From: Trichlorobacter ammonificans
Lineage (GTDB): Bacteria; Desulfobacterota; Desulfuromonadia; Geobacterales; Pseudopelobacteraceae
DNA: 64,000 nt
Assembly: GCF_933509905.1 (NCBI RefSeq)
Contig: NZ_OW150024.1
Coordinates: 2,592,001-2,656,000, forward strand
Direction: 5' to 3'
The number at the start of each line of letters is the position of its first letter. The stretch's first letter is position 1. Position numbers and translations under genes: made by a program. Under the pieces are notes generated by a model. It was not told the origin of the DNA and searched no databases. It worked only from the letters and a program-made list of their open reading frames with translations. Positions 17,343 to 30,077 of this stretch are shown one piece after another.

Positions 17343-17939
17343 ATGATCCGCAGTTTTCTGGCGTTGTTTGTCCTGCTCTCCATCGCTGTAACCGCCCACG
17401 CCTTCGACGTGGAAAAGCTGATTCTGGATGGCGCGTCCCGTATCCGTGAATCGGCTCCCCGCGACGAGGCCGGCCAGGACGAGGCACCGCGGCCGTCGAA
17501 ATCCCGCCCGAGCGCACCGGCGGCCGGTGAAGATGATCACTTCATCCAGCCTGACGATGTTTTTATTGCCGAGCGCCCCCTGGGCTCCCACGCCTGGATT
17601 TCCGTCCAACTGGCCAAGGTAACCACCGCTCCTTCCCCCCAGACCAAGGATGAAGGCGAATTTTTCCGGGTGACCGACGGCACCAGCCACTGGACCCGGC
17701 ATTACTGGAAGACCAGGATTGCCCGTTCCGATGAGATCAAGCTGGGCGCCGTGATGATCATGTTCGAGGGCAGAAGCTCGAAGGGAGTCTACCAGGCCCC
17801 GGACAAGAAGAGCTCCGCCCGTCGCGACAACTGGTTCATGGCCAAGATCACCGACACCTCCGACCTGTACAAGGGGTACGTCACTGTCTCGGGCGGCTAC
17901 AAGACCAGCCCCGCCAACCTGCGGGTGATCGTCCGCTAG
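17343..17939 (+). CDS. Secreted protein of unknown function
   Basis: A 198-residue protein with a signal peptide (1-20, cleavage after AHA). A low-complexity charged and Pro-rich stretch (about 38-64) is followed by a compact C-terminal domain with repeated aromatic residues (HWTRHYWKTRIA, RRDNWFMAKITD) and a GGYKTSP segment. The ribosome site AAAGGAGG is strong. It is the last gene of the yqaA-rlpA cluster, and a hairpin follows. I recognise no family. A periplasmic or surface location is likely. Confidence 0.75.
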   Translation: MIRSFLALFVLLSIAVTAHAFDVEKLILDGASRIRESAPRDEAGQDEAPRPSKSRPSAPAAGEDDHFIQPDDVFIAERPLGSHAWISVQLAKVTTAPSPQTKDEGEFFRVTDGTSHWTRHYWKTRIARSDEIKLGAVMIMFEGRSSKGVYQAPDKKSSARRDNWFMAKITDTSDLYKGYVTVSGGYKTSPANLRVIVR

Positions 17940-17960
17940 ACGTTCCACTTCCCTTTCTCT

Positions 17961-18015
17961 CCGGCCCGTGCCGCGGCTCGTCACAACGTACGCCGCAGCA
18001 CGGGCCGGCCTGTTT
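17961..18015 (+). terminator. Probable terminator before the kdp region
   Basis: An 11-bp perfect inverted repeat (17961-17971 with 17998-18008) encloses a 26-nt loop and is followed by CCTGTTTT. The T-run is short and the loop long, so strength is uncertain. Confidence 0.55.
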
Positions 18016-18052
18016 TCGCCCCGGCTTGCTCCTCCTGCTCCCTCCCCCCTAT

Positions 18053-18118
18053 TTTGATGCGCGCTTGACACCTCCGGCGTGCATTTTGACACCTGATTTA
18101 CCTCCCCCCCGCTATCCT
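18053..18118 (+). promoter_or_regulatory. kdp promoter with KdpE-type box array
   Basis: Boxes resembling CTTGACA occur at 18053 (TTTGATG), 18064 (CTTGACA), 18085 (TTTGACA) and, weakly, 18096 (ATTTACC), giving spacings of 11, 21 and 11 nt. A -10 hexamer TATCCT begins at 18113, 60 nt from the first box. The same geometry occurs before kup at 26266-26331. I infer binding by the KdpE response regulator encoded in this operon. Confidence 0.65.
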
Positions 18119-18157
18119 GAGCTTATGAACGCTCCTACACCACCGGAGGAACGGGCC

Positions 18158-18394
18158 ATGAAGGTCTACTTGTTCAACGTGGAAAACGGTCTGTACGCAG
18201 GTGAAACATTCGAGGATGCTGGTATGCTTGCAGAAGAGGAGGGGATGACCACCATTGCTCCGCCCCTGCACGACTGCAGCCAGGTACCGGTGTTCAACCG
18301 GGAGCGGCAACAGTGGGAACTGATCTCCGTCGGCATAGCCCGGCAACTACTGCATCTGGACGACGGATGCAGTGCCAAGGAGAAGCGATCATGA
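18158..18394 (+). CDS. Small conserved-looking protein leading the kdp operon
   Basis: A 78-residue protein starting at ATG 18158, with CGGAGGAACGGGCC just before it. It begins [15 protein letters not shown], is rich in acidic residues in its centre, ends basic, and has no membrane segment or signal peptide. It overlaps kdpA by 4 nt (ATGA), so translation is coupled. The usual small Kdp subunit KdpF is a hydrophobic peptide of about 30 residues; this is not KdpF. A regulatory or assembly role in potassium uptake is possible but unproven. Confidence 0.7.
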
Positions 18395-20175
18395 ACCCCT
18401 ACGAGTGGATGCAAACCGGAGTGTTCTTTGCGGTACTGCTGGCTCTGATCAAGCCGTTTGGCGGCTTCATGGCCAGGGTATTCCAGGGGGAACGGACCGT
18501 CATCACGCCGGTACTCGCCCCCTGCGAACGCCTGATCTACCGTCTCTGCGGGGTAGCGCCGGATGAGGAAATGGACTGGAAGCGCTATGCCCGGTGTCTG
18601 ATCCTCTTCAATAGTGTGCTGTTCGTATCGCTTTTCGCAATCCTCATGACCCAGCACCTGCTGCCGCTCAACCCGCAGAAGCTCCCGGCGTTCTCCTGGC
18701 AACTGGCGCTCAATACCGCGGTCAGCTTCGTCACCAACACCAACTGGCAGGCATACGTCGGTGAACAGGCCGCCAGCTACTTCACCCAGATGGTGGGACT
18801 CACGGTGCATAATTTCGTCTCAGCTGCCACCGGCATTGCCGTGGCCATCGCCGTGATTCGCGGTTTTGCCCGGCGGCGCACCAACCAGCTCGGTAACTTC
18901 TGGGTGGACCTGACCCGCTGCACGCTCTACGTGCTGCTGCCCATCTCGCTGGTGGCTGCCCTGGTTCTGGTCTCCCAGGGAGCGATCCAGAATTTCAGCG
19001 CCTACAAGACCGTACCGCTTGTCCAGCCGATCACCTACGACACGCCGAAAAAGGACGCCAAGGGGGACCCGGTCAAGGATGCCAGGGGGAACCCGCTGAC
19101 CGAGAGCGTGACTGCCAAGGAGGTCGTTATCCCCATGGGGCCGGTGGCCTCCCAGGAGGCGATCAAGGAACTGGGGACCAACGGTGGCGGCTTCTTTAAC
19201 GCCAACTCTGCCCACCCCTACGAAAATCCGACCCCGTTTTCCCACCTGTTCGAGATCCTGCTGATCCTCCTCATCCCCGGCAGCCTGACCTACACCTTCG
19301 GGGTCATGGTGGGGAATACCCGCCAGGGGTGGGCCATCCTGGGAGTCATGCTCGTTCTGCTTCTTGCCTCCTTCGGCGCGCTCCAGTGGGCAGAGGCCGG
19401 CGGTAATCCGCTGGTGGCCAAGCTCGGCGTCAGCGGCCCCAACATGGAGGGAAAAGATCTCCGCTTCGGTCTGGCCGGCACCACCCTGTTCGAGGTGGCC
19501 ACCACCGGCACATCATGCGGCGCCGTAGCCGCCATGCACGACTCCCTCACCCCGCTTGGCGGCATGGTCCCCTTGAGTCTCATGCTCCTCGGCGAGATCG
19601 TCTTCGGCGGAGTAGGATCGGGGCTCTACACCATGCTCGCTTTTGCGATCATCGCCGTGTTCATCTCCGGCCTCATGATCGGTCGCACCCCGGAGTATCT
19701 AGGTAAGAAGATCGAGGTGCGGGAAATGTGGCTGTCCATCATCACGGTACTCATTGCCGGGATCACGGTGTTGATCGTCACTGCCATTGCCATGATCACC
19801 CCCTCCGCAGTGGCCTCCATGGCTAATCCCGGCGCCCATGGCCTCAGTGAAGTGCTCTACGCCTTCGCCTCCATGGCCAACAACAACGGCAGTGCCTTTG
19901 CCGGCCTGAACGCCAACGTCAATTTCTACAATCTTTGGGGCTCCCTGGCCATGATCCTTGGGCGCTATGTCCCGGCGGTGGCGGTGCTGGCCATGGCCGG
20001 CTCCCTGGCGGAGAAGAAGTACGTCCCTCCCAGCCTGGGGACGCTGCCCACGGACAAGGTACCGTTCGCCCTCTGGCTTACCCTGGTGATCCTGATCATC
20101 GGGGCGCTCACCTTTTTTCCGGCCCTGTCGCTGGGGCCGATCGTCGAACACCTGACCATGGTGGGAGGTACCTGA
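18391..20175 (+). CDS. kdpA: Potassium-transporting ATPase subunit A
   Basis: The 594-residue potassium-binding and translocating subunit of the high-affinity KdpFABC pump. It has about ten membrane segments of the potassium-channel superfamily type. A filter-region signature [21 protein letters not shown]-like block is near residue 265, and the TTGTSCGAV block near 370 is another pore loop. ATG 18391 overlaps the stop of the small upstream gene. Length is normal (E. coli 557) with a modest insertion rich in Lys and Asp near 218-240. The operon should be induced by low potassium. Confidence 0.97.
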
Positions 20176-20177
20176 CC

Positions 20178-22247
20178 ATGTCGCTACACAAACCTGAACC
20201 GGTATCCCTGTTTGATACCCGTATCCTGCGCCCGGCGCTGGCGGCATCGTTTAAAAAACTGAACCCGGTTGAACTGTGGCGTAATCCGGTCATGCTCTGC
20301 GTGGAGATCGCCAGTGTCATCACCCTGGTGACCTTCGTCATGTCGCTCACCGGCGCCAACCTGGAGCCGGCCTGGTTCACCGGCCTGGTTTCGGCGTGGC
20401 TCTGGCTGACGGTGATCTTCTCGACGTTCTCCGAGGCGCTGGCCGAAGGACGCGGCAAGGCCCGGGCCGCCAGTCTCCGCTCGTCCCGTACCAGCGTCAC
20501 CGCCAAGCTCCTGTCCCGGCCGGAGTTCGGCAGCGCCTTCACCACCGTGGGAGCGAGCCAGCTGCGCAAAGGTGACCTGATCCTGGTGGAAGCGGGTGAG
20601 ATGATTGCCGGTGACGGCGACGTCATTGCCGGGGCAGCCCTGGTGAACGAGGCGGCGGTGACCGGCGAGTCGGCACCGGTGGTGCGGGAGTCCGGGGGGG
20701 ACCGCAGTGCCGTCACCGGCGGTACCATGGTCATCGCCAACAGCATCATCGTCAGGATCACCGCCAACCCCGGCGAAACTTTCCTAGACCGGATGATCTC
20801 CCTGATCGAGGGGGCCAAGCGCCGCAAGACCCCCAACGAGATCGCCCTGGAGGTGCTGTTGATCGCCCTGACCCTGGTGTTTCTGCTGGTCTGCATCAAT
20901 ATCAGTCCGCTCTCCATCTACAGCGTCACGGCCGCCGGCCAGGGGCAACCGGTGTCGCTCACCGTGCTGACCGCCCTGTTCGTCTGCCTGGCCCCCACCA
21001 CCATTGCCGCCCTGCTGCCGGCCATCGGTATCGCCGGCATGGACCGGCTGTTCCAGAAGAACGTTATTGCCCTCTCCGGTCGGGCCATCGAGGCTGCCGG
21101 CGATGTGAACGTGCTGCTTTTGGACAAGACCGGCACCATCACCCATGGCAACCGGGAAGCGGTGGCGTTCGTCCCCGTGGGGGGGCATGGTGAGCAGGAG
21201 CTGGCGCAGGCGGCCCTGATGGCCTCCATCGCCGATGAGACCCCGGAGGGGCGCAGTATCGTGGCTCTGGCCCGGCAGAACTACGGGTTCGTCATGGAAG
21301 CACCGCCGGCCGGTGCTGAAGTGATCGACTTCAGTGCCGAAACCCGCCTCTCCGGCATCAACGCCCATGGCGAACAGTTCCGCAAGGGCGCTTCCGATGC
21401 AACCGTCGCCTTTGTAAAAAAGCTGGGTGGCACAACCATCCCCGCAGAACTGGCCGAGGTGGTTCACAAAATCGCCCGGGCCGGCGCCACGCCGCTGGTA
21501 GTCTGCCGCACCAGTGAAATCATCGGCGTGGTCAATCTGAAGGATATCGTCAAGACCGGCATCCAGGAGCGCTTCCTGCAACTGCGCAGCATGGGGATCA
21601 AGACGGTGATGATCACCGGCGACAATCCCCTCACCGCCGCCGCCATTGCCGCCGAGGCCCAGGTGGACGACTTTCTGGCCCAGGCGAAACCGGAGGACAA
21701 GCTGCGCCTGATCCGGGAGAACCAGGAGGCCGGTTTCATGGTGGCCATGACCGGCGACGGCACCAACGACGCCCCGGCCCTGGCCCAGGCCGATGTGGCG
21801 GTGGCCATGAACACCGGCACCCAGCCGGCCCGGGAGGCAGCCAACATCATCGATCTGGACTCCAACCCCACCAAGCTGCTGGATATCGTCGAGGTGGGCA
21901 AGCAGATCCTCATGACCCGGGGTAACCTGACCACCTTCAGCATCAGTAACGACGTGGCCAAATATTTCGCCATCATCCCGGCCATGATGATTTCGGTCTA
22001 TCCGCAGTTGGGCGCCCTCAACGTCATGCATCTGGCGACACCGCTCTCGGCGATTCTGTCGGCGGTGATCTTCAATGCCCTGATCATTCCGCTGCTGGTG
22101 CCGCTGGCGTTGAGGGGCACGAAGTTCCGCCCCATGCCGGCGGAACGGCTGCTGATTCACAATCTGCTGATCTACGGCGCGGGTGGACTGGTGGCGCCGT
22201 TCGTGGGGATCAAGGCCATTGATATGGTTATCGGGATGCTGGTGTAA
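20178..22247 (+). CDS. kdpB: Potassium-transporting P-type ATPase subunit B
   Basis: The 689-residue catalytic P-type ATPase subunit of KdpFABC. The phosphorylation motif DKTGTIT has its Asp near residue 316. The actuator TGES motif is in [11 protein letters not shown], the hinge [10 protein letters not shown] is complete, and the membrane segments match type IA pumps. It follows kdpA by 2 nt with GGAGGTACCTGACC upstream of the ATG. Energy from ATP drives potassium through KdpA. Confidence 0.97.
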
Positions 22248-22256
22248 GTCGGACAT

Positions 22257-22281
22257 GTCGGACCGGTCGTACCGGTCCGAC
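22257..22281. repeat. Palindromic hairpin between kdpB and kdpC
   Basis: A perfect 10-bp stem (22257-22266 with 22272-22281) has a five-base loop and sits in the only sizeable gap (51 nt) inside kdpABCDE. There is no T-run. A partial copy of the half-site (GTCGGACATGTCGGAC) precedes it. It could tune relative expression of kdpAB versus kdpCDE or stabilise mRNA ends. Confidence 0.6.
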
Positions 22282-22298
22282 GAAAAGGAGACAACCGG

Positions 22299-22868
22299 AT
22301 GAACGACCTGAAAGCAGCCATTCTGCTGTTCATTACCTTCACCGTTATCTGTGGCGGTATCTACCCCCTGGCGGTCACCGGCATTGCCCAGGCAGTGTTC
22401 CCCAGGCAGGCCAACGGCAGCTTCATCAGCGGAAAGGACGGCAAGGAGATCGGCTCCGTCCTGATCGGCCAGCCCTTCAGCGACCCGCAGTACTTCTGGC
22501 CCCGCCCGTCGGCCACCGCGGAATTCGGCTATAATCCCGCAGCATCCGGCGGCTCCAATGCCGGCCCCACCAACCCCGACTACCTGAAGATCGTTGCGGG
22601 GCGGGTTGCGGACCTGCGCGCCGGCGGCATCACCGGCCCCATTCCGGCCGACCTGGCGCAGGCATCGGCCAGCGGGATTGACCCCCATATCTCCGTTGCG
22701 TCGGCCCGGCTGCAGATACCGCGGGTGGCCCGGTCGCGGGGCCTGAGCGAGGATGCGGTTGCCGCGCTGGTTGCCCGGACCACGGAAGGGCGACAGTTCG
22801 GACTGCTGGGAGAGCCGCGGGTCAATGTGCTTGTATTGAATCTCAATTTGGCTACACTCCAGCCATGA
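22299..22868 (+). CDS. kdpC: Potassium-transporting ATPase subunit C
   Basis: The 189-residue Kdp subunit with a single N-terminal membrane anchor (about 8-30) and a periplasmic domain containing the family block GQPFSDPQYFWPRPSATA. Its C-terminal part includes NPDYLK and DPHISVASA. KdpC stabilises the KdpA-KdpB complex and is thought to help gate potassium access. It overlaps kdpD by 4 nt. Confidence 0.96.
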   Translation: MNDLKAAILLFITFTVICGGIYPLAVTGIAQAVFPRQANGSFISGKDGKEIGSVLIGQPFSDPQYFWPRPSATAEFGYNPAASGGSNAGPTNPDYLKIVAGRVADLRAGGITGPIPADLAQASASGIDPHISVASARLQIPRVARSRGLSEDAVAALVARTTEGRQFGLLGEPRVNVLVLNLNLATLQP

Positions 22869-25552
22869 CCGTCTCCGACGACATACGCCCCACCCCGGAG
22901 GCGATGCTGAAACTGGCCCAGGCCGAAGAAGTGACCGCCGAGCTGGGCAAGCTGAAGATATTCCTCGGCTATGCCGCCGGCGTGGGAAAGACCTACGCCA
23001 TGCTGGAGGCGGCCCGCAAACGGAAGGCCGACGGCCGCGACCTGGTGGTGGGCTATGTGGAATCCCATGGCCGGTCTGAGACCGATGCCCTGCTGGGGGG
23101 GCTGGAAATCGTTCCCCGCAAGCAGGTACCCTACGCCGGGGTCGCACTGCCGGAAATGGACCTCGACGCCATTCTGGCCCGCAAGCCCCAGATCGTCCTG
23201 GTTGACGAACTGGCCCATTCGAACGCTCCCGGTTCCCGCCACGAAAAGCGCTGGCAGGACGTGGAGGAAATCCTCGAAGCGGGAATCGATGTCTATACCA
23301 CGGTCAATATCCAGCACTTTGAAAGCCTGAACGATGTGGTGGCCCGCATCACCGGCGTCACGGTGCGGGAAACCGTGCCGGACCGGCTGCTGGACCTGGC
23401 CTTCGAGATCCGGCTGATCGATATTCCGCCCGAAGATCTGCTGCAACGGCTGCACGAAGGCAAGGTATACGTGGCCGACCAGGCAGCCAAGGCCATTGAG
23501 AAGTTCTTCCGGCCGGGCAACCTGATGGCGCTCAGGGAACTGTCCCTGCGCAGAACCGCAGCCCGGGTGGACGACCAGATGCGGGCCTACATGGAGACCC
23601 AGGCGATCCCCGGTCCCTGGGCCACGGCGGAACGGCTGCTGGTCTGCGTCAGCGGCAGTCCCTACAGTGAGAAGCTGATCCGCGCCACCTGCCGACTCGC
23701 TGAGGAGCTGAAAGCCACCTGGTTCACCGTCTATATCGAAACACCGGCAGGGGGGCGGCAGGTTCACGAAAACCGGCAACGGATCTGGCAGAACCTCCGC
23801 CTTGCCGAAAGCCTGGGGGCCCAGGTGGCCACCGTGACCGCCACGGACGTCACCGACGCGATCATGGAGTATGCCGGTCGCCACAACATCACCAAGATCG
23901 TCATGGGCAAACCGGATAGGCCCCGCTGGCGCGAACTGCTCCAGCCCCCCATCGTGGATCGGGTCATCCGCCGGAGCGGTGCCGTCGACGTGGTTGTGGT
24001 CAGCTTCGAATCCACCGGCAGGTCTTCCTCCCGAGAAACGCCGCCACGACGACAACCTGTCCGGATCCGGGGCTACGCGGCAAGTATTGTCCTGGTAACC
24101 GTGGCAACCATGCTCTGTGCCCTGGTCCGGCCGTTCCTGGAACCGACCAACATGGTGATGATCTACCTCCTGGCAGTGGTGCTGGCGGCGGTCCGCCTTG
24201 AACGCAAACCGGCGATGCTGACCGCCCTGCTGGGGGTCCTGGCCTTTGACTTCTTTTTTGTCCCTCCCTTCCTGACCTTTGCCGTGGCAGACACCCAGTA
24301 CATTATTACCTTTATCGCCCTGTTCAGCGTCGGCCTTGTCATCAGCACCCTGGTGGTCCGTGCCCGGGAGCGGGCCGACGTCATGCGGGCCCGGGAGCTG
24401 CATACCGCCAGCCTGTATTATCTGAGCCGGGATCTTGCCGCTGCGGTCGACATCGATGCCGTGCTGAGCGCCATGGTGCGCAATATCGAGGAGGCGCTGA
24501 ACGCCCAAGTGGCCATCCTTCTTCCGGAAGGAGAGCGGCTCGACATTATGGCCACCAGCAACGGCCTGACCCTGGACGTCAAAGAGCAGGCGGTTGCCGA
24601 CTGGGCGTTCCGCAACAACCATCCGGCCGGACGCACCACCGACACCCTGGTTTCCGCCGAGCTGGTCTACCTGCCGCTCCAGACCCCGGCCAGCGTTCTG
24701 GGGATACTCGGCATCAGGCTTGAGGACGACCATGCCTACCACTCCCAGGACAACCGGCGCCTGCTGGAAGCGTTTGCCACCCAGGCTGCCATGGCCATCG
24801 AACGGATCCGGTTCTCGCACCAGGCGGAGCAGGCCCAGATTCTGCAGGCACGGGAAAATCTGGAGCGGGCCCTGCTCAACTCCATCTCCCACGACCTGCG
24901 AACTCCGCTGGTAACCGTCACCGGGGCTCTGACCACCCTGCGGGACAGCCCCGACGAGGTACCGCCCGGTGCGAAGCAGGCCCTGCTGGAAACCGCCTGC
25001 GACGAGGCGGAACGCCTGAACCGCTTTGTGGCCAACCTGCTGGATATGAGCCGCATCGAGGCCGGAGCGGTCAGGCTGAACCTGGAACCGTGCGACATGC
25101 AGGATCTGGCCGGCTGCGCCCTGGCAGCAGTCAAGCCGCGGCTTGGCGACCGATCGATCAGCACCCTCCTGCCGGACGACCTGCCGCTGGTGCCGCTGGA
25201 TATGGTGTTGATGACCCAAGTGCTGGTCAACATCCTGGACAATGCCCTTAAATATTCGTCGCCGGACACCCCCCTGGAGCTGGCCGGCTCGGTGGAACGG
25301 AACCGGCTGGTACTGACCGTTGCCGACCGTGGCCCCGGGGTGCCGGAGCATGACCTGAAGCGGGTGTTCGACAAGTTTTACCGCATACCGGTTCCGGAAG
25401 GAGCCGGCGGCACCGGCCTGGGCCTTTCCATCTGCAAGGGAATCGTGGAGGCCCACGGCGGCGACATCAGCGCGGAAAACCGGACCGGAGGCGGCCTTGT
25501 CGTGACCGTGCGGCTGCCCCTTACCCAGAATCACGTAAGGACGACATCATGA
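22865..25552 (+). CDS. kdpD: Osmosensitive K+ channel sensor histidine kinase KdpD
   Basis: The 895-residue sensor kinase controls kdp. The N-terminal KdpD domain carries a Walker A (GYAAGVGKT, 35-43) and a DELAHSN Walker B-like motif. A universal-stress-protein domain follows (about 250-375), then four clustered membrane segments (about 400-500), a GAF-like region, and the kinase core with HDLRTPL (His near 677), N box NILDNALKYS and GTGLGLSICKG. The arrangement matches E. coli KdpD. It overlaps kdpC and kdpE by 4 nt on each side. Confidence 0.96.
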   Translation: MTVSDDIRPTPEAMLKLAQAEEVTAELGKLKIFLGYAAGVGKTYAMLEAARKRKADGRDLVVGYVESHGRSETDALLGGLEIVPRKQVPYAGVALPEMDLDAILARKPQIVLVDELAHSNAPGSRHEKRWQDVEEILEAGIDVYTTVNIQHFESLNDVVARITGVTVRETVPDRLLDLAFEIRLIDIPPEDLLQRLHEGKVYVADQAAKAIEKFFRPGNLMALRELSLRRTAARVDDQMRAYMETQAIPGPWATAERLLVCVSGSPYSEKLIRATCRLAEELKATWFTVYIETPAGGRQVHENRQRIWQNLRLAESLGAQVATVTATDVTDAIMEYAGRHNITKIVMGKPDRPRWRELLQPPIVDRVIRRSGAVDVVVVSFESTGRSSSRETPPRRQPVRIRGYAASIVLVTVATMLCALVRPFLEPTNMVMIYLLAVVLAAVRLERKPAMLTALLGVLAFDFFFVPPFLTFAVADTQYIITFIALFSVGLVISTLVVRARERADVMRARELHTASLYYLSRDLAAAVDIDAVLSAMVRNIEEALNAQVAILLPEGERLDIMATSNGLTLDVKEQAVADWAFRNNHPAGRTTDTLVSAELVYLPLQTPASVLGILGIRLEDDHAYHSQDNRRLLEAFATQAAMAIERIRFSHQAEQAQILQARENLERALLNSISHDLRTPLVTVTGALTTLRDSPDEVPPGAKQALLETACDEAERLNRFVANLLDMSRIEAGAVRLNLEPCDMQDLAGCALAAVKPRLGDRSISTLLPDDLPLVPLDMVLMTQVLVNILDNALKYSSPDTPLELAGSVERNRLVLTVADRGPGVPEHDLKRVFDKFYRIPVPEGAGGTGLGLSICKGIVEAHGGDISAENRTGGGLVVTVRLPLTQNHVRTTS

Positions 25553-26247
25553 CCCCGGAGCGTACCGAGCGAAATCTTCCCCGCATTCTGATCATCGACG
25601 ACGAGGCGGCTATCCGCCGTTTTCTGCACACCGTCCTGCCTGCCGACGAATTTGCCCTGTACGAGGCGGACAGCGGTCACAGCGGCCTGTCGGTGACCGC
25701 CGCCGTCCGGCCCGACGTCGTCCTGCTCGACCTGGGCCTGCCGGATATGGACGGCATTGAGGTGATCGCCCGAATCAGGGAATGGGCCCCCACCCCGATC
25801 ATCGTACTGTCGGTGCGGGAGCGGGAGTCGGACAAGATCGCGGCCCTTGATGCCGGTGCGGACGATTACCTGACCAAACCGTTCGGGGTCGGCGAACTGC
25901 TGGCCCGGATCAGGGCCATGCTGCGCCGGGCGCAGCAACAGATCCCCGAACCGGTGTTCCGCAGCGATGATCTGGAAATGGATCTCGAAAAGCGCCGTGT
26001 CGTTGTGCGGGGCGAAACGGTTCAGCTCACCCCCACGGAGTACGACCTGCTCAAGCTGCTGGTCACCCATGCCGGCAAGGTGCTGACCCACCGCCATATC
26101 CTGAACAGGATCTGGGGACCGGCCTACCTGGAGCAGCCCCATGTGCTGCGGGTCAATATCAGCAACCTGCGCCGCAAGATCGAAATCACCCCCACCCAGC
26201 CCTGCCACATCATCACCGAGCCCGGGGTCGGCTATCGCCTGCTCTGA
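25549..26247 (+). CDS. kdpE: Response regulator KdpE
   Basis: A 232-residue OmpR-family regulator. The receiver domain has acidic pocket DDE at 17-19, phosphorylation site D61 in VLLDLGLPDMDG and Lys in LTKPFG. A C-terminal winged helix follows, with TPTEYDLLKLLV and VLRVNISNLRRKIE. It is translated in overlap with kdpD and is expected to activate kdp at low potassium. The repeated boxes upstream of kdp and kup are candidate binding sites: direct repeats 11 and 21 nt apart suit an OmpR-type dimer binding one face of the helix. Confidence 0.95.
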   Translation: MTPERTERNLPRILIIDDEAAIRRFLHTVLPADEFALYEADSGHSGLSVTAAVRPDVVLLDLGLPDMDGIEVIARIREWAPTPIIVLSVRERESDKIAALDAGADDYLTKPFGVGELLARIRAMLRRAQQQIPEPVFRSDDLEMDLEKRRVVVRGETVQLTPTEYDLLKLLVTHAGKVLTHRHILNRIWGPAYLEQPHVLRVNISNLRRKIEITPTQPCHIITEPGVGYRLL

Positions 26248-26265
26248 CCCCGCCGCACCAACCTT

Positions 26266-26331
26266 CTTGATGTTTTCTTGACAGACCTCCGGCACATCTT
26301 GACACCGGCTTGATGTGGCGATACCTACAAT
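26266..26331 (+). promoter_or_regulatory. kup promoter with KdpE-type box array
   Basis: Four boxes, CTTGATG (26266), CTTGACA (26277), CTTGACA (26298) and CTTGATG (26309), are spaced 11, 21 and 11 nt. A -10 hexamer TACAAT starts at 26326, 60 nt after the first box. Spacing is identical to the kdp promoter at 18053-18118. The array is the best match in the window to a multi-site OmpR-family operator. Confidence 0.7.
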
Positions 26332-26351
26332 GAATAAGTATGGGCTCCCGG

Positions 26352-26385
26352 GTCGTCGGCAACGGCTGACGACTTTTTTGTTGCC
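26352..26385 (+). promoter_or_regulatory. Terminator/antiterminator-like leader of kup
   Basis: A 9-bp stem (26352-26360 with 26365-26373, loop AACG) is followed by six T, forming an intrinsic terminator 42 nt before the kup start. GGCAAC (26358-26363), half in the stem and half in the loop, can pair instead with GTTGCC (26380-26385) just past the T-run, which would break the terminator. This is the layout of an attenuator. The controlling signal is unknown, and the leader is too short for the known large potassium-related riboswitches. Confidence 0.5.
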
Positions 26386-26414
26386 CTCACCGCTGCCTGT
26401 CCGGAGACGAATTC

Positions 26415-28235
26415 ATGAAACAGTCCGAAGCCGCTTCATACTGGGGCGGCATCGTCAAATCCATGGGGCTGGTGTTCGGCGATATCGGCACCAGCCCGAT
26501 CTATACCCTGACCGTCATCGTCACCCTCACAAAACCTTCCCAGCAGAGCATCTACGGCATTATTTCCCTGATCGTCTGGACCCTGATCCTGCTGGTCATG
26601 GTGGAGTACGCCTGGCTGGCCATGTCCCTGGGACGCAAAGGAGAAGGGGGTACCATCGTTCTGCGGGAGATTCTGGTCAGGATGCTCAAACCGGGCCGGC
26701 GGCTGGCATTTGTCACCTTTCTCTCCTACGTCGGCATCTGCCTGCTGATCGGCGACGGCGTCATCACGCCGGCCATCTCGATCCTTTCAGCCGTGGAAGG
26801 TCTGGAACTGATCCCCGGACTTGAGCACACCTCCCAGAACATCCTGATCCTGATTGCGGCCATCATCGCCGTGGGTCTGTTCATTTTCCAAAGCAAGGGA
26901 ACCGACCGGGTGGCCAGCGCCTTCGGACCGCTGATGGTGGTCTGGTTCCTGGCCCTGACCGTCTCGGGGGTGGTCTCCATTGTGGATCACCCCATGGTGG
27001 TCAAGGCGATCAATCCCTGGTACGCCCTCCAGTTCCTGAGGGACAACGGCCTGGCCGGCTTCTTTGTCCTGTCCGAAGTCATCCTCTGCGCCACCGGCGG
27101 CGAAGCGCTCTACGCCGACATGGGGCACCTGGGACGCAAGCCGATCGTCCGGGCCTGGTATTTCGTGTTCACCGCCCTGGTCATCAACTACCTGGGCCAG
27201 GGGGCCTACATCATCAACCACCCGGAAGCCACCAACATCCTGTTCGGCATGGTGCGCCACGAAGCGGCGTTCCTCTATATCCCCTTCCTGGTCCTGACGA
27301 TCATGGCCACGGTCATCGCCTCCCAGGCCCTGATCAGCGGCGTCTATTCCATCGTCTACCAGGGGGTCACCACCCGGATTCTGCCGCTCCTGAAGGTGGA
27401 GTACACCTCAAGCCACCTGAAGTCCCAGATCTACATCGGCTCGGTCAACTGGGTGCTCCTGGCCCTGGTGATCCTGATCATGCTGGTATTCCGGAAATCG
27501 GAAAACCTGGCCGCCGCTTACGGCCTGGCGGTGACCGGCACCATGACCATCACCGGCATCATGATGACCATGATCTTTGCCCGCACCACCAAGAAATGGA
27601 AAGTGCCGATCGCCCTGCTGGTCACCCTGCTGGACTTCGCGTTCCTGACCGCCAATCTGAACAAGTTTCCCCACGGCGGCTACTGGTCCATCATCCTGGC
27701 GTTGATTCCCTTCATAACCATCATGGTCTGGACCCGGGGACAGCGAGCCCTGTACCGCGCCATGCGGCCGCTCGATCTGGACACCTTCCGGCTCTCCTAT
27801 GAGCAGATTTACGCCAAGGGACGGAACATCCCCGGCACGGCCCTGTTCTTTGTCAAGGAACATACGGTGGTCCCCCCCTATGTGGCCCACTGCATCATCC
27901 GCAGCAACATCATCTACGAGCGCAACATCTTCATCTCCCTGATCCGCACCGATGAGCCCTACGGCGTCGACACCACGCTCATCGAAGGGCTTGCCACTGG
28001 CCTCGACGTGTTCGAAATCAGCGCAGGGTACATGGAACTTCTCAGCATCGAGGAATTGTTGCGGAAAAACGGCATCAGGGAGAAGGTCATCTTCTACGGC
28101 GTTGAGGACATAGCCACCAATAACTTGATTTGGAAGCTGTTTTCGACTATCAAGCGTCAGACACCGAACTTCGTACAGTTCAACAAGCTGCCGGCTGCTC
28201 GGCTCCAGGGGGTGGTAACCCGCGTGGAGATGTAA
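26415..28235 (+). CDS. kup: Low-affinity potassium transporter Kup (first copy)
   Basis: A 606-residue potassium/proton symporter with twelve membrane segments. The N-terminal signature GLVFGDIGTSPIYTL and the conserved GDGVITPAISILSAVEG segment are complete, and a C-terminal cytoplasmic domain of about 150 residues is present. It is first in a two-gene unit with a close paralogue 18 nt downstream. Expression is probably tied to potassium supply through the box array at 26266. Confidence 0.96.
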   Translation: MKQSEAASYWGGIVKSMGLVFGDIGTSPIYTLTVIVTLTKPSQQSIYGIISLIVWTLILLVMVEYAWLAMSLGRKGEGGTIVLREILVRMLKPGRRLAFVTFLSYVGICLLIGDGVITPAISILSAVEGLELIPGLEHTSQNILILIAAIIAVGLFIFQSKGTDRVASAFGPLMVVWFLALTVSGVVSIVDHPMVVKAINPWYALQFLRDNGLAGFFVLSEVILCATGGEALYADMGHLGRKPIVRAWYFVFTALVINYLGQGAYIINHPEATNILFGMVRHEAAFLYIPFLVLTIMATVIASQALISGVYSIVYQGVTTRILPLLKVEYTSSHLKSQIYIGSVNWVLLALVILIMLVFRKSENLAAAYGLAVTGTMTITGIMMTMIFARTTKKWKVPIALLVTLLDFAFLTANLNKFPHGGYWSIILALIPFITIMVWTRGQRALYRAMRPLDLDTFRLSYEQIYAKGRNIPGTALFFVKEHTVVPPYVAHCIIRSNIIYERNIFISLIRTDEPYGVDTTLIEGLATGLDVFEISAGYMELLSIEELLRKNGIREKVIFYGVEDIATNNLIWKLFSTIKRQTPNFVQFNKLPAARLQGVVTRVEM

Positions 28236-28253
28236 CGCCGGCATGGGAGTACC

Positions 28254-30077
28254 ATGTCACACACACAGGAAAACGACTCCTTCTGGGGCGGTATCGTCAA
28301 GGCACTGGGGCTGGTGTTCGGCGATATCGGCACCAGTCCGATCTACACCCTCACCGTTGTCTTCACCCTGACGAAGCCCACGCTCGGGAACGTCTACGGC
28401 ATCCTCTCCCTGGTTTTCTGGACCATGACCATCCTGGTAACTGTCGAATACGCCTGGCTGGCCATGTCCCTGGGACGCAAGGGGCAGGGTGGGGAGATCG
28501 TCCTTCGGGAAATCCTGATCAGGATGCTGAAGAAGGGGAGGCTGCTGGCCTTTGCCGGCTTTCTTTCGTTCCTGGGGGTATCCCTGCTGCTGGGGGACGG
28601 CGTCATCACCCCGGCGATTTCAATACTGTCCGCCGTGGAAGGGATGCTGCTGATTCCGGCACTGTCCGGCATGAAGCAGGGGATGCTGGTGGGGATCGCC
28701 GCCCTGATCGCTTTTACCCTGTTTTTCTTCCAGTCCCGCGGCACCGACCGGATGGCCGGCATTTTCGGCCCGGTCATGGCTGTGTACTTCCTGTCGTTAC
28801 TGGTGTCGGGTGCTGTCTCCATCTCCAGCATGCCGGGTATTGTGGCGGCGGTCAGCCCCCACTACGCCGTTGAATTTTTCAGCAACAACGGCCTGTCCTC
28901 GTTCTTTGTCCTCTCCGAAGTCATTCTGTGCGCCACCGGCGGCGAAGCGCTCTATGCCGACATGGGGCACCTGGGACGCAAGCCGATCGTCCGGGCGTGG
29001 TATTTCGTCTTTTTCGCCCTGTACCTGAACTACCTGGGCCAGGGGGCGTTCATCATCCAGCACCCGGACGCCACCAACATCCTGTTCTCCATGATCAGGC
29101 ACCAGGCTCCCCTGCTGTACATCCCGTTCCTGCTGCTGACCGTCATGGCCACCATCATCGCTTCCCAGGCCATCATCAGCGGGGTCTTCTCCATCGTCTA
29201 CCAGGGGATCACCACTCGCCTGATGCCGCTGTTGAAGGTCGACTACACCTCCAGCCATATCCAGTCACAGATCTACATCGGTGCCGTTAACTGGATGCTG
29301 ATGATAGCCGTCATCTTCGTCATGTTCTTCTTCCAGAAGTCGCAGAACCTGGCAGCGGCCTACGGCATGGCGGTGACCGGCTCCATGACCATCACCGCCA
29401 CCATGATGATCCTGGTCTTCGCCAATACCATGAAAAAATGGAAGGTACCGATCGTGGTGCTGGTGGCGTTGCTGGATCTGGTCTACTTCGTCTCCACCTT
29501 TTCCAAGATTCCCCACGGCGCCTACTGGTCCATCATCCTGGCCGCCATCCCCTTTGTCACCATCATGATCTGGACCAGGGGGCAACGGGCTCTCTACCAC
29601 GCCCTCAAGCCGCTGGACCTGGAGACGTTCCTGCTCTCATTCGCGCAGATATTTGCAAAAGGCAGGAACATCCCCGGCACGGCACTGTTTTTCGTCAAAG
29701 GGCTGGATGTGGTCCCTCCCTATGTGGTGCATTGCATCATTCGCAGCAACATCATCTACGAGCGCAACATTTTTATCTCCATCGTGCGCACCGACGACCC
29801 CTTTGGCGTGGAATGCAGCCATCTGCCTGCTGTGGCGTCGGGACTCGAGTTCTTTGAGATTCGGGCGGGATATATGGAGGTGATCGACATCGAGCGGCAA
29901 CTGCATGCCCACGGCATCAGAGAAAAGGTGATCTTCTACGGCATCGAGGATATCAGCACCGCCAATCCGCTCTGGAAGGTCTTTGCCACCATCAAGAAAC
30001 TGACCCCCAACTTCGTGCAGTTCAACAAGCTGCCGGCCAGCAAGCTGCAGGGAGTGGTCACCAGGGTCGAGATGTAA
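28254..30077 (+). CDS. kup: Low-affinity potassium transporter Kup (second copy)
   Basis: A 607-residue paralogue of the preceding gene with the same motifs (GLVFGDIGTSPIYTL, GDGVITPAISILSAVEG) and twelve membrane segments. The two align along their whole length, with several near-identical stretches such as YADMGHLGRKPIVRAWY, and differ most in external loops and the C-terminal domain. A tandem duplication that has since diverged is the simplest reading. Its stop is 6 nt from the convergent pilT stop with no terminator between, so transcripts probably overlap. Confidence 0.96.
   Translation: MSHTQENDSFWGGIVKALGLVFGDIGTSPIYTLTVVFTLTKPTLGNVYGILSLVFWTMTILVTVEYAWLAMSLGRKGQGGEIVLREILIRMLKKGRLLAFAGFLSFLGVSLLLGDGVITPAISILSAVEGMLLIPALSGMKQGMLVGIAALIAFTLFFFQSRGTDRMAGIFGPVMAVYFLSLLVSGAVSISSMPGIVAAVSPHYAVEFFSNNGLSSFFVLSEVILCATGGEALYADMGHLGRKPIVRAWYFVFFALYLNYLGQGAFIIQHPDATNILFSMIRHQAPLLYIPFLLLTVMATIIASQAIISGVFSIVYQGITTRLMPLLKVDYTSSHIQSQIYIGAVNWMLMIAVIFVMFFFQKSQNLAAAYGMAVTGSMTITATMMILVFANTMKKWKVPIVVLVALLDLVYFVSTFSKIPHGAYWSIILAAIPFVTIMIWTRGQRALYHALKPLDLETFLLSFAQIFAKGRNIPGTALFFVKGLDVVPPYVVHCIIRSNIIYERNIFISIVRTDDPFGVECSHLPAVASGLEFFEIRAGYMEVIDIERQLHAHGIREKVIFYGIEDISTANPLWKVFATIKKLTPNFVQFNKLPASKLQGVVTRVEM

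Follow-up and report, generated by a model that had tools for sequence, protein, structure and literature searches.

A kdp cluster in Trichlorobacter ammonificans is followed directly by two kup genes, and this arrangement raises the question of whether the high-affinity Kdp pump and the nominally low-affinity Kup transporters answer to the same regulator. In Escherichia coli, Kup has been termed constitutive (PMC5458449, PMC5401905; accessible parts of both). We analyzed a 64,000-nucleotide stretch of the T. ammonificans genome (contig NZ_OW150024.1, positions 2,592,001 to 2,656,000 of the forward strand; hereafter the window), in which the genes run, all on the plus strand, from an open reading frame (ORF) of 78 amino acids (aa) through kdpABC, kdpD and kdpE to two tandem kup genes. 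The promoters ahead of the 78-aa ORF and of the first kup carry arrays of four boxes with the same geometry. We think it quite likely that these arrays are operators for the response regulator KdpE. Taken singly, the kdp array is very probably a functional KdpE-activated promoter, and the kup array is likely to be one as well. Binding and activation by KdpE are what we infer from the sequence, and dependence on KdpD would follow from the domains of the encoded kinase and from its family.

Four-box arrays at kdp and kup

At both promoters, the boxes lie exactly where the first-pass annotation had placed them, spaced 11, 21 and 11 nucleotides (nt) apart (Table 1), and the -10 hexamer begins exactly 60 nt past the start of box 1. 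Its statement that no -35 element stands at the normal distance also proved correct, as no sigma-70 -35/-10 pair (16-18 nt) occurs in 17900-26500, where shuffled sequences would be expected to yield 1.6. Across the 3.06-Mb genome, the pattern TTGAYR-N5-TTGAYR-N15-TTGAYR has two matches with zero mismatches, the kdp and kup arrays only; one more has a single mismatch and five have two, one of the five being the region of kup boxes 3-4. When up to three mismatches are allowed, there are 56 matches, compared to 39 for a control pattern read backwards, and the three-box pattern is therefore informative for its top matches alone.

Conservation upstream of kdp and kup orthologues had been proposed as a check, and the arrays withstood it at both genes: they precede kdpA in 64 of 70 cases and kup in 16 of 89. 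KdpA was searched in 117 genomes of the order (E 1e-80) and is present in 73; the upstream set comprises 70 matches from 68 genomes, with G005, G012, G081, G091 and G105 not included. A matrix of 74 nt, running from 6 nt ahead of box 1 to just beyond the -10 hexamer, was trained on the 55 kdpA upstreams with at most two mismatches to the three-box pattern, the window's genome being excluded. The 64 arrays are those scoring above 0 when scored leave-one-out by genome. The six misses are G069 (324 bases to the contig end), G034, the second kdpA of G098, and G093, G099 and G103, in which kup precedes kdpA; an array stands before this leading kup in G093 and G099, and the contig ends there in G103. 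Scores above 0 on the reverse strand, a control excluded from the forward-strand counts, were found in four of the 70. The relatives' consensus, TCTTGAtg..ttcTTGAc....T..ccCcccATTTTGACACC.a.TTTAT........tGcTA.c.T, keeps the four boxes and the -10 hexamer and also shows part of an extended -10 (tG), which is missing at the window's kup. Within the window, this kdp-trained matrix scores 58 at kdp and 56 at kup, and nothing else rises above -8.

Kup, searched in the same 117 genomes (E 1e-60), is present in 113. Its upstream set, 90 stretches from 85 of these 113 genomes and not covering every kup copy, leaves 89 usable once L191 (61 bases, contig end) is excluded from the matrix and Rfam counts. 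The 16 positive scores range from 5.1 (G106) to 56.3, and the next value is -9.3. The window's own kup ranks first of the 89 with 56.3, while 1780 dinucleotide shuffles peak at -7.1. When a matrix is instead built solely from kup arrays, 15 of them and all from other genomes, it scores the window's kup at 63.7 and its kdp at 30.4, the next value in the 64 kb being -6.3.

Arrayed kup genes occur in several genomic settings. The array follows kdpE directly, as in the window, in G000, G063, G029, G114, G038, G068 and G032, and a kup with its own array is distant from kdpE in G041 (7 kb), G053 (640 kb from the kdp-linked kdpE), G110 (other contig), G013 and G106; G013 has a divergent kdpE 2.2 kb from its arrayed kup and no KdpA match (E 1e-80). 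Besides the leading kup genes of G093 and G099, the 16 include G043 and G070, where the array precedes a kdpE-kup pair. Among 12 further such pairs, nine have an array (G044, G108, G021, G098, G023, G064, G056, G049, G039) and none was found upstream in G086, G088 and G009; a kdpD-like ORF lies between array and kdpE in both loci for which ORFs were listed (G044, G108). In G111, the array is 0.14 kb ahead of kup. Overall, 21 of the 90 stretches have a same-strand kdpE no more than 400 nt upstream of kup. A single reverse-strand score exceeds 0 among the 89 (43.9, G039), with the array oriented oppositely, and all reverse-strand arrays face divergent genes, namely kdpE-kup (G043, G070), a KimA-like ORF (G001, G009) or a homologue of the 78-aa ORF (G039).

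Arrays are also found at genes other than kdp and kup. The array of G011 (44.2) faces a KimA-like transporter (L363, 765-2843; KimA structure PDB 6s3k, E 6e-62), and those of G001 (L237) and G009 (L050) face a gene assigned as KimA-like by an N-terminal sequence shared with that of G011. In G015, a weaker array (10.8; L358, 1625) stands between kdpD and a divergently oriented ABC transporter and is directed at the latter.

The KdpE site described in the accessible part of PMC3264566 for E. coli consists of S1 (TTTATA) and S2 (TTTACA) with N5 between them, at -72 to -50. Both window arrays likewise contain two 6-bp direct repeats that start with TT and stand 5 bp apart (TTGATG-N5-TTGACA), and the position agrees when judged by the distance to the -10 hexamer, with 59 nt from the TT of box 1 in the window and in E. 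coli. The Geobacter-trained matrix scores 10.4 exactly on S1 of E. coli K-12 kdp, the top value on both strands of a 7-kb stretch, not equalled in 1000 mononucleotide shuffles (400 nt), and the match lays out TTTACA at +11, TTTGCG at +32, TTTGCA at +43 and TACCCT at +59. The upstream of E. coli kup scores -45.3. The E. coli operator and the window's arrays have the same distance from distal pair to -10 hexamer but differ in sequence, with TTTATA/TTTACA there and TTGATG/TTGACA here, and the window adds a strong proximal pair at +32/+43 where E. coli reads TTTGCG/TTTGCA; the description of the E. coli operator covers S1 and S2, as far as the accessible text goes (PMC3264566).

Outside the order, we considered 80 KdpE-bearing loci, 19 of them with a usable kdpA upstream. 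Seven of the 19 score above 0, including two Anaerolineae (54, 50), one Planctomycetia (21) and three Betaproteobacteria (18, 3, 3), and 12 do not. Loci without kdpA in reach also score 29 to 53 (L096, L120, L126, L162). The four-box form is widespread, not universal.

KdpE, residue 198 and rival readings of the arrays

KdpD phosphorylates KdpE when potassium is low, as is established for the family. Each array would form a KdpE operator in which two dimer sites, arranged head to tail, face the same side of the helix at a distance of about three turns (32 bp). Judging by this geometry, one KdpE dimer would occupy boxes 1-2, at about -72 to -55, and a second would occupy boxes 3-4, at about -40 to -23, where it may substitute for the -35 element and recruit RNA polymerase to the -10 hexamer. 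In PhoB-type class II activation, the pho box takes the place of the -35 element. The arrays resemble that system in their tandem 11-bp repeats, a proximal dimer about 10 bp before the -10 hexamer and the lack of a -35, and differ from it in half-site and regulator. The array at the kup promoter would place the tandem Kup transporters in the low-potassium regulon of the Kdp pump. A single regulon of this kind, as the first-pass annotation suggested, is supported by the relatives' arrays and the E. coli geometry, and control of kup by KdpE appears likely.

Further support may come from residue 198 of KdpE, which lies just ahead of the recognition helix. Among 232 KdpE columns, it shows the strongest association with base 3 of the boxes (52 kdp loci, each with its KdpE linked). 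In boxes 1-3, this base is G in 105 of 117 cases at the 39 loci with His198; at the 11 loci with Asn198 it is A in 22 of 33 and G in three, and the two Gln198 loci have three T and three G. Boxes are mostly G in 37 of 39 His198 loci versus one of 13 others (Fisher 5e-9, a descriptive value that ignores kinship). On the KdpE tree, ten Asn198 proteins form one clade and G083 stands separate. The match between residue and base is better controlled in genomes that have two types of KdpE. G028 has a His198 KdpE with TTG boxes and an Asn198 KdpE with TTA boxes; in G053, Asn198 goes with a TTA kdp array, while the kup array is TTG and the second KdpE is of the His type; and in G044, Asn198 goes with TTA at kdp and Gln198 with TTT at kdpDE-kup. 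The window's KdpE has His198, and its boxes read TTGA except for the weak kdp box 4. The helix arginines R193/R200 of E. coli KdpE (PMC3264566, accessible part) correspond to R201/R208 in the window's protein, by alignment and manual count.

The box-like repeats might owe their existence to chance or base composition, given that single TTGACA-like hexamers are common and that the control pattern has 39 matches to 56 at three mismatches. There are, however, exactly two zero-mismatch matches, conservation of the arrays spans four families within the order, and E. coli is matched as well; in our view, the conservation scores at kup and kdpA already refute a chance origin, which we regard as next to impossible. 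Another OmpR-family regulator, above all a KdpE paralogue, or several regulators jointly might read the arrays instead. The window's genome encodes two more KdpE-like proteins, 63% and 61% identical and both distant from kdp, whose helix LRVNISNLR is the same as that of the window's KdpE, so overlapping binding is plausible. One follows what we take to be a KdpD-like kinase fragment and adjoins a presumed sodium/proton-antiporter-like gene; the other presumably lies near a DUF485-like ORF. Both carry Gln198, a type paired with mostly TTTA boxes in G043, G070, G044 and G023, whereas the window's arrays are TTGA; this argument is weakened by the separate origin of the paralogues' Gln198 on the tree. 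Their surroundings, 14 kb and 16 kb (L034, L035), contain no array above -8. We consider a reader other than KdpE improbable.

The kup array could also be bound by KdpE yet act as a brake or have no effect, a leftover duplicate of the kdp promoter beside kup, with kup expression limited by the terminator downstream. A hairpin and T run do lie about 18-48 nt past the kup -10 hexamer, and in Sinorhizobium fredii, kup drops at low potassium, and under that condition a kdpDE mutant shows an increase of about 50-fold (PMC9239096, accessible part). On the other hand, the window's kup retains the complete set of four boxes at the same distance from the -10 hexamer, with a box 4 better than that of kdp, and arrays stand at the kup of G041, 7 kb from kdpE, and at that of G053, where the kdp-linked kdpE is 640 kb away, with flanks that differ by eye. 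A brake or relic is unlikely, if slightly less so than a different regulator.

Several observations weigh against KdpE operators at kdp and kup. The array is not general to kup, since 73 of the 89 upstreams are without one within 1 kb, and G106 (88% complete) has an array but no KdpE-like match at E 1e-60 and no KdpA either. The terminator-like hairpin stands directly behind the kup promoter. The pairing of His198 with G is broken by the His loci G079 and G061 and the Gln locus G043, and a tree-aware test of residue against base is not significant, with three well-supported independent pairs, none of them contrary. Unexplained scores of up to 13 come from AT-rich loci in other phyla (L115, L124, L125, L129), and low scores outside the order, including the 10.4 of E. 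coli, therefore count mainly by their position. Lastly, according to the accessible part of PMC9239096, S. fredii KdpE activates kdp at low potassium, as we propose here, and bound the kdp promoter but not the kup promoter in an electrophoretic mobility shift assay; unlike in that system, the kup of the window bears a full operator sequence.

The kup leader and the genes of the locus

The leader of the window's kup contains a hairpin that was absent from the first-pass annotation, with a T run that starts 41 nt before the start codon. In the order, 25 of the 89 kup leaders contain the cyclic di-AMP (c-di-AMP) riboswitch RF00379, a control that resembles the proposed one in sitting at potassium uptake genes and differs from it in acting at the RNA level and through c-di-AMP. 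Array and riboswitch occur together in G106 alone (L223; array at -310, aptamer 765-921), compared to an expected overlap of 16 x 25 / 89 = 4.5, a comparison that is no test since the genomes are related. Of the 90 kup stretches, 39 have neither array nor riboswitch nor a near-upstream kdpE, including that of G039 (kdpE 532 nt off). A riboswitch at the window's kup was considered and rejected, as there is no RF00379 match in 17500-28500 at the gathering score, in 26240-26430 at E<=10, where only a chance small RNA match appears, or in the genome. The genome does encode c-di-AMP cyclase domains.

In riboswitch leaders of the same genus, the T run starts at -41 (G116), -42 (G059), -43 (G011) and -57 (G018), and the window's leader is alignable with four riboswitch leaders across stem and T run. 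The T run of G063, whose kup is arrayed as in the window, starts at -34, and most other arrayed kup leaders are without such a hairpin. We read the window's hairpin as a terminator probably left from a lost riboswitch; alternatively, it may be the ordinary end of the kdp operon.

The encoded KdpE is indeed of the OmpR family, as the first-pass annotation stated, with an OmpR-type receiver and winged helix beside a KdpD bearing the KdpD sensor domain. Its best NCBIfam model is KdpE, at 256.9 bits against a curated equivalog cut-off of 325, and we identify the protein by its locus, domains and PDB match, not by this model. Similarly, both Kup proteins carry the Pfam K_trans domain, and TIGR00794 (kup) is their best NCBIfam model, at 401.2 and 377 bits, below the equivalog cut-off of 539.6. 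The tandem kup genes are probably co-transcribed, being 18 nt apart.

The 78-aa ORF has tblastn homologues in 52 of the 70 kdpA upstreams (the window's own included) and in three of the 89 kup upstreams (G053, G021, G098), and one also lies behind the reversed array of G039. It matched no Pfam or NCBIfam family, and PHROG gives a weak tail-fibre-assembly match (E 0.017).

Table 1. Promoter elements and genes of the kdp-kup locus, in window positions unless a genome position is given.
Feature	Position	Strand	Remarks
kdp box 1, TTTGATG	18053	+	read from sequence
kdp box 2, CTTGACA	18064	+	read from sequence
kdp box 3, TTTGACA	18085	+	read from sequence
kdp box 4, ATTTACC (weak)	18096	+	read from sequence
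kdp distal half-site pair, TTGATG/TTGACA, 11 nt apart	18054..18070	+	predicted KdpE dimer site; spaced and placed in the promoter like S1/S2 of E. coli
kdp proximal half-site pair, TTGACA and weak TTTACC	18086..18102	+	occupies the -35 place; box 4 reads TTTAT in the consensus of 55 relatives
kdp -10 hexamer, TATCCT	18113..18118	+	TA...T at +59 from box-1 TT near-invariant among relatives
78-aa ORF, function not assigned	18158..18394	+	first after kdp promoter; tblastn homologues at relatives' kdpA
kdpA	18391..20175	+	PF03814, E 1.4e-241
kdpB	20178..22247	+	identity by position; start taken at MSLHKP codon
kdpC	22299..22868	+	identity by position
kdpD sensor kinase	22865..25552	+	KdpD, Usp, DUF4118, GAF, HisKA and HATPase domains
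kdpE response regulator	25549..26247	+	residue 198 His; Response_reg and Trans_reg_C; E. coli KdpE 4kny, E 6.2e-72
kup box 1, CTTGATG	26266	+	read from sequence
kup box 2, CTTGACA	26277	+	read from sequence
kup box 3, CTTGACA	26298	+	read from sequence
kup box 4, CTTGATG	26309	+	read from sequence
kup distal half-site pair, TTGATG/TTGACA	26267..26283	+	predicted KdpE site; matrix match
kup proximal half-site pair, TTGACA/TTGATG	26299..26315	+	matrix match
kup -10 hexamer, TACAAT	26326..26331	+	distance identical to that at kdp
intrinsic-terminator-like 11-pair hairpin and T run	26350..26379	+	between kup -10 and kup start codon
kup, first copy	26415..28235	+	K_trans, E 2.2e-160
kup, second copy	28254..30077	+	K_trans, E 6.5e-152; starts 18 nt past first kup
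KdpE paralogues (L002, L003)	G000:C1:2003908-2004594, 1124411-1125100		Gln198

Regulation of Kup in Geobacter relatives

Geobacter metallireducens and Geobacter sulfurreducens have kdpABCDE clusters and duplicate kup genes (PMC2700814), and in biofilm of a G. sulfurreducens gsu1771 mutant, the transcripts of kdpDE and kdpABC decrease together (PMC10599522; accessible parts of both). Our literature searches, which mostly did not extend to subscription literature and so give no proof of absence, met no report of KdpE control of kup, and a search for the phrase 'KdpE regulon' found no paper.

A broader account can be offered tentatively, at somewhat less than an even chance. The native KdpE operator may consist of four half-sites with a proximal pair replacing the -35 element, from E. 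coli to the Geobacter relatives, Chloroflexota and Planctomycetes, and be tuned by residue 198. KdpE would have repeatedly taken over Kup in the order, as well as KimA-like transporters in three genomes, and in the window's genome it would have replaced an ancestral c-di-AMP riboswitch of which the terminator remains.

The four-box geometry provides a sharp operator model by which further genomes can be searched for KdpE targets. Residue 198 offers a specificity-swap handle on the pairing of KdpE with its boxes. If KdpE does act at kup as we propose, a nominally low-affinity transporter would join the starvation response in Geobacter-like bacteria, and kup in these organisms could come under either of two controls, a two-component system or a c-di-AMP riboswitch.

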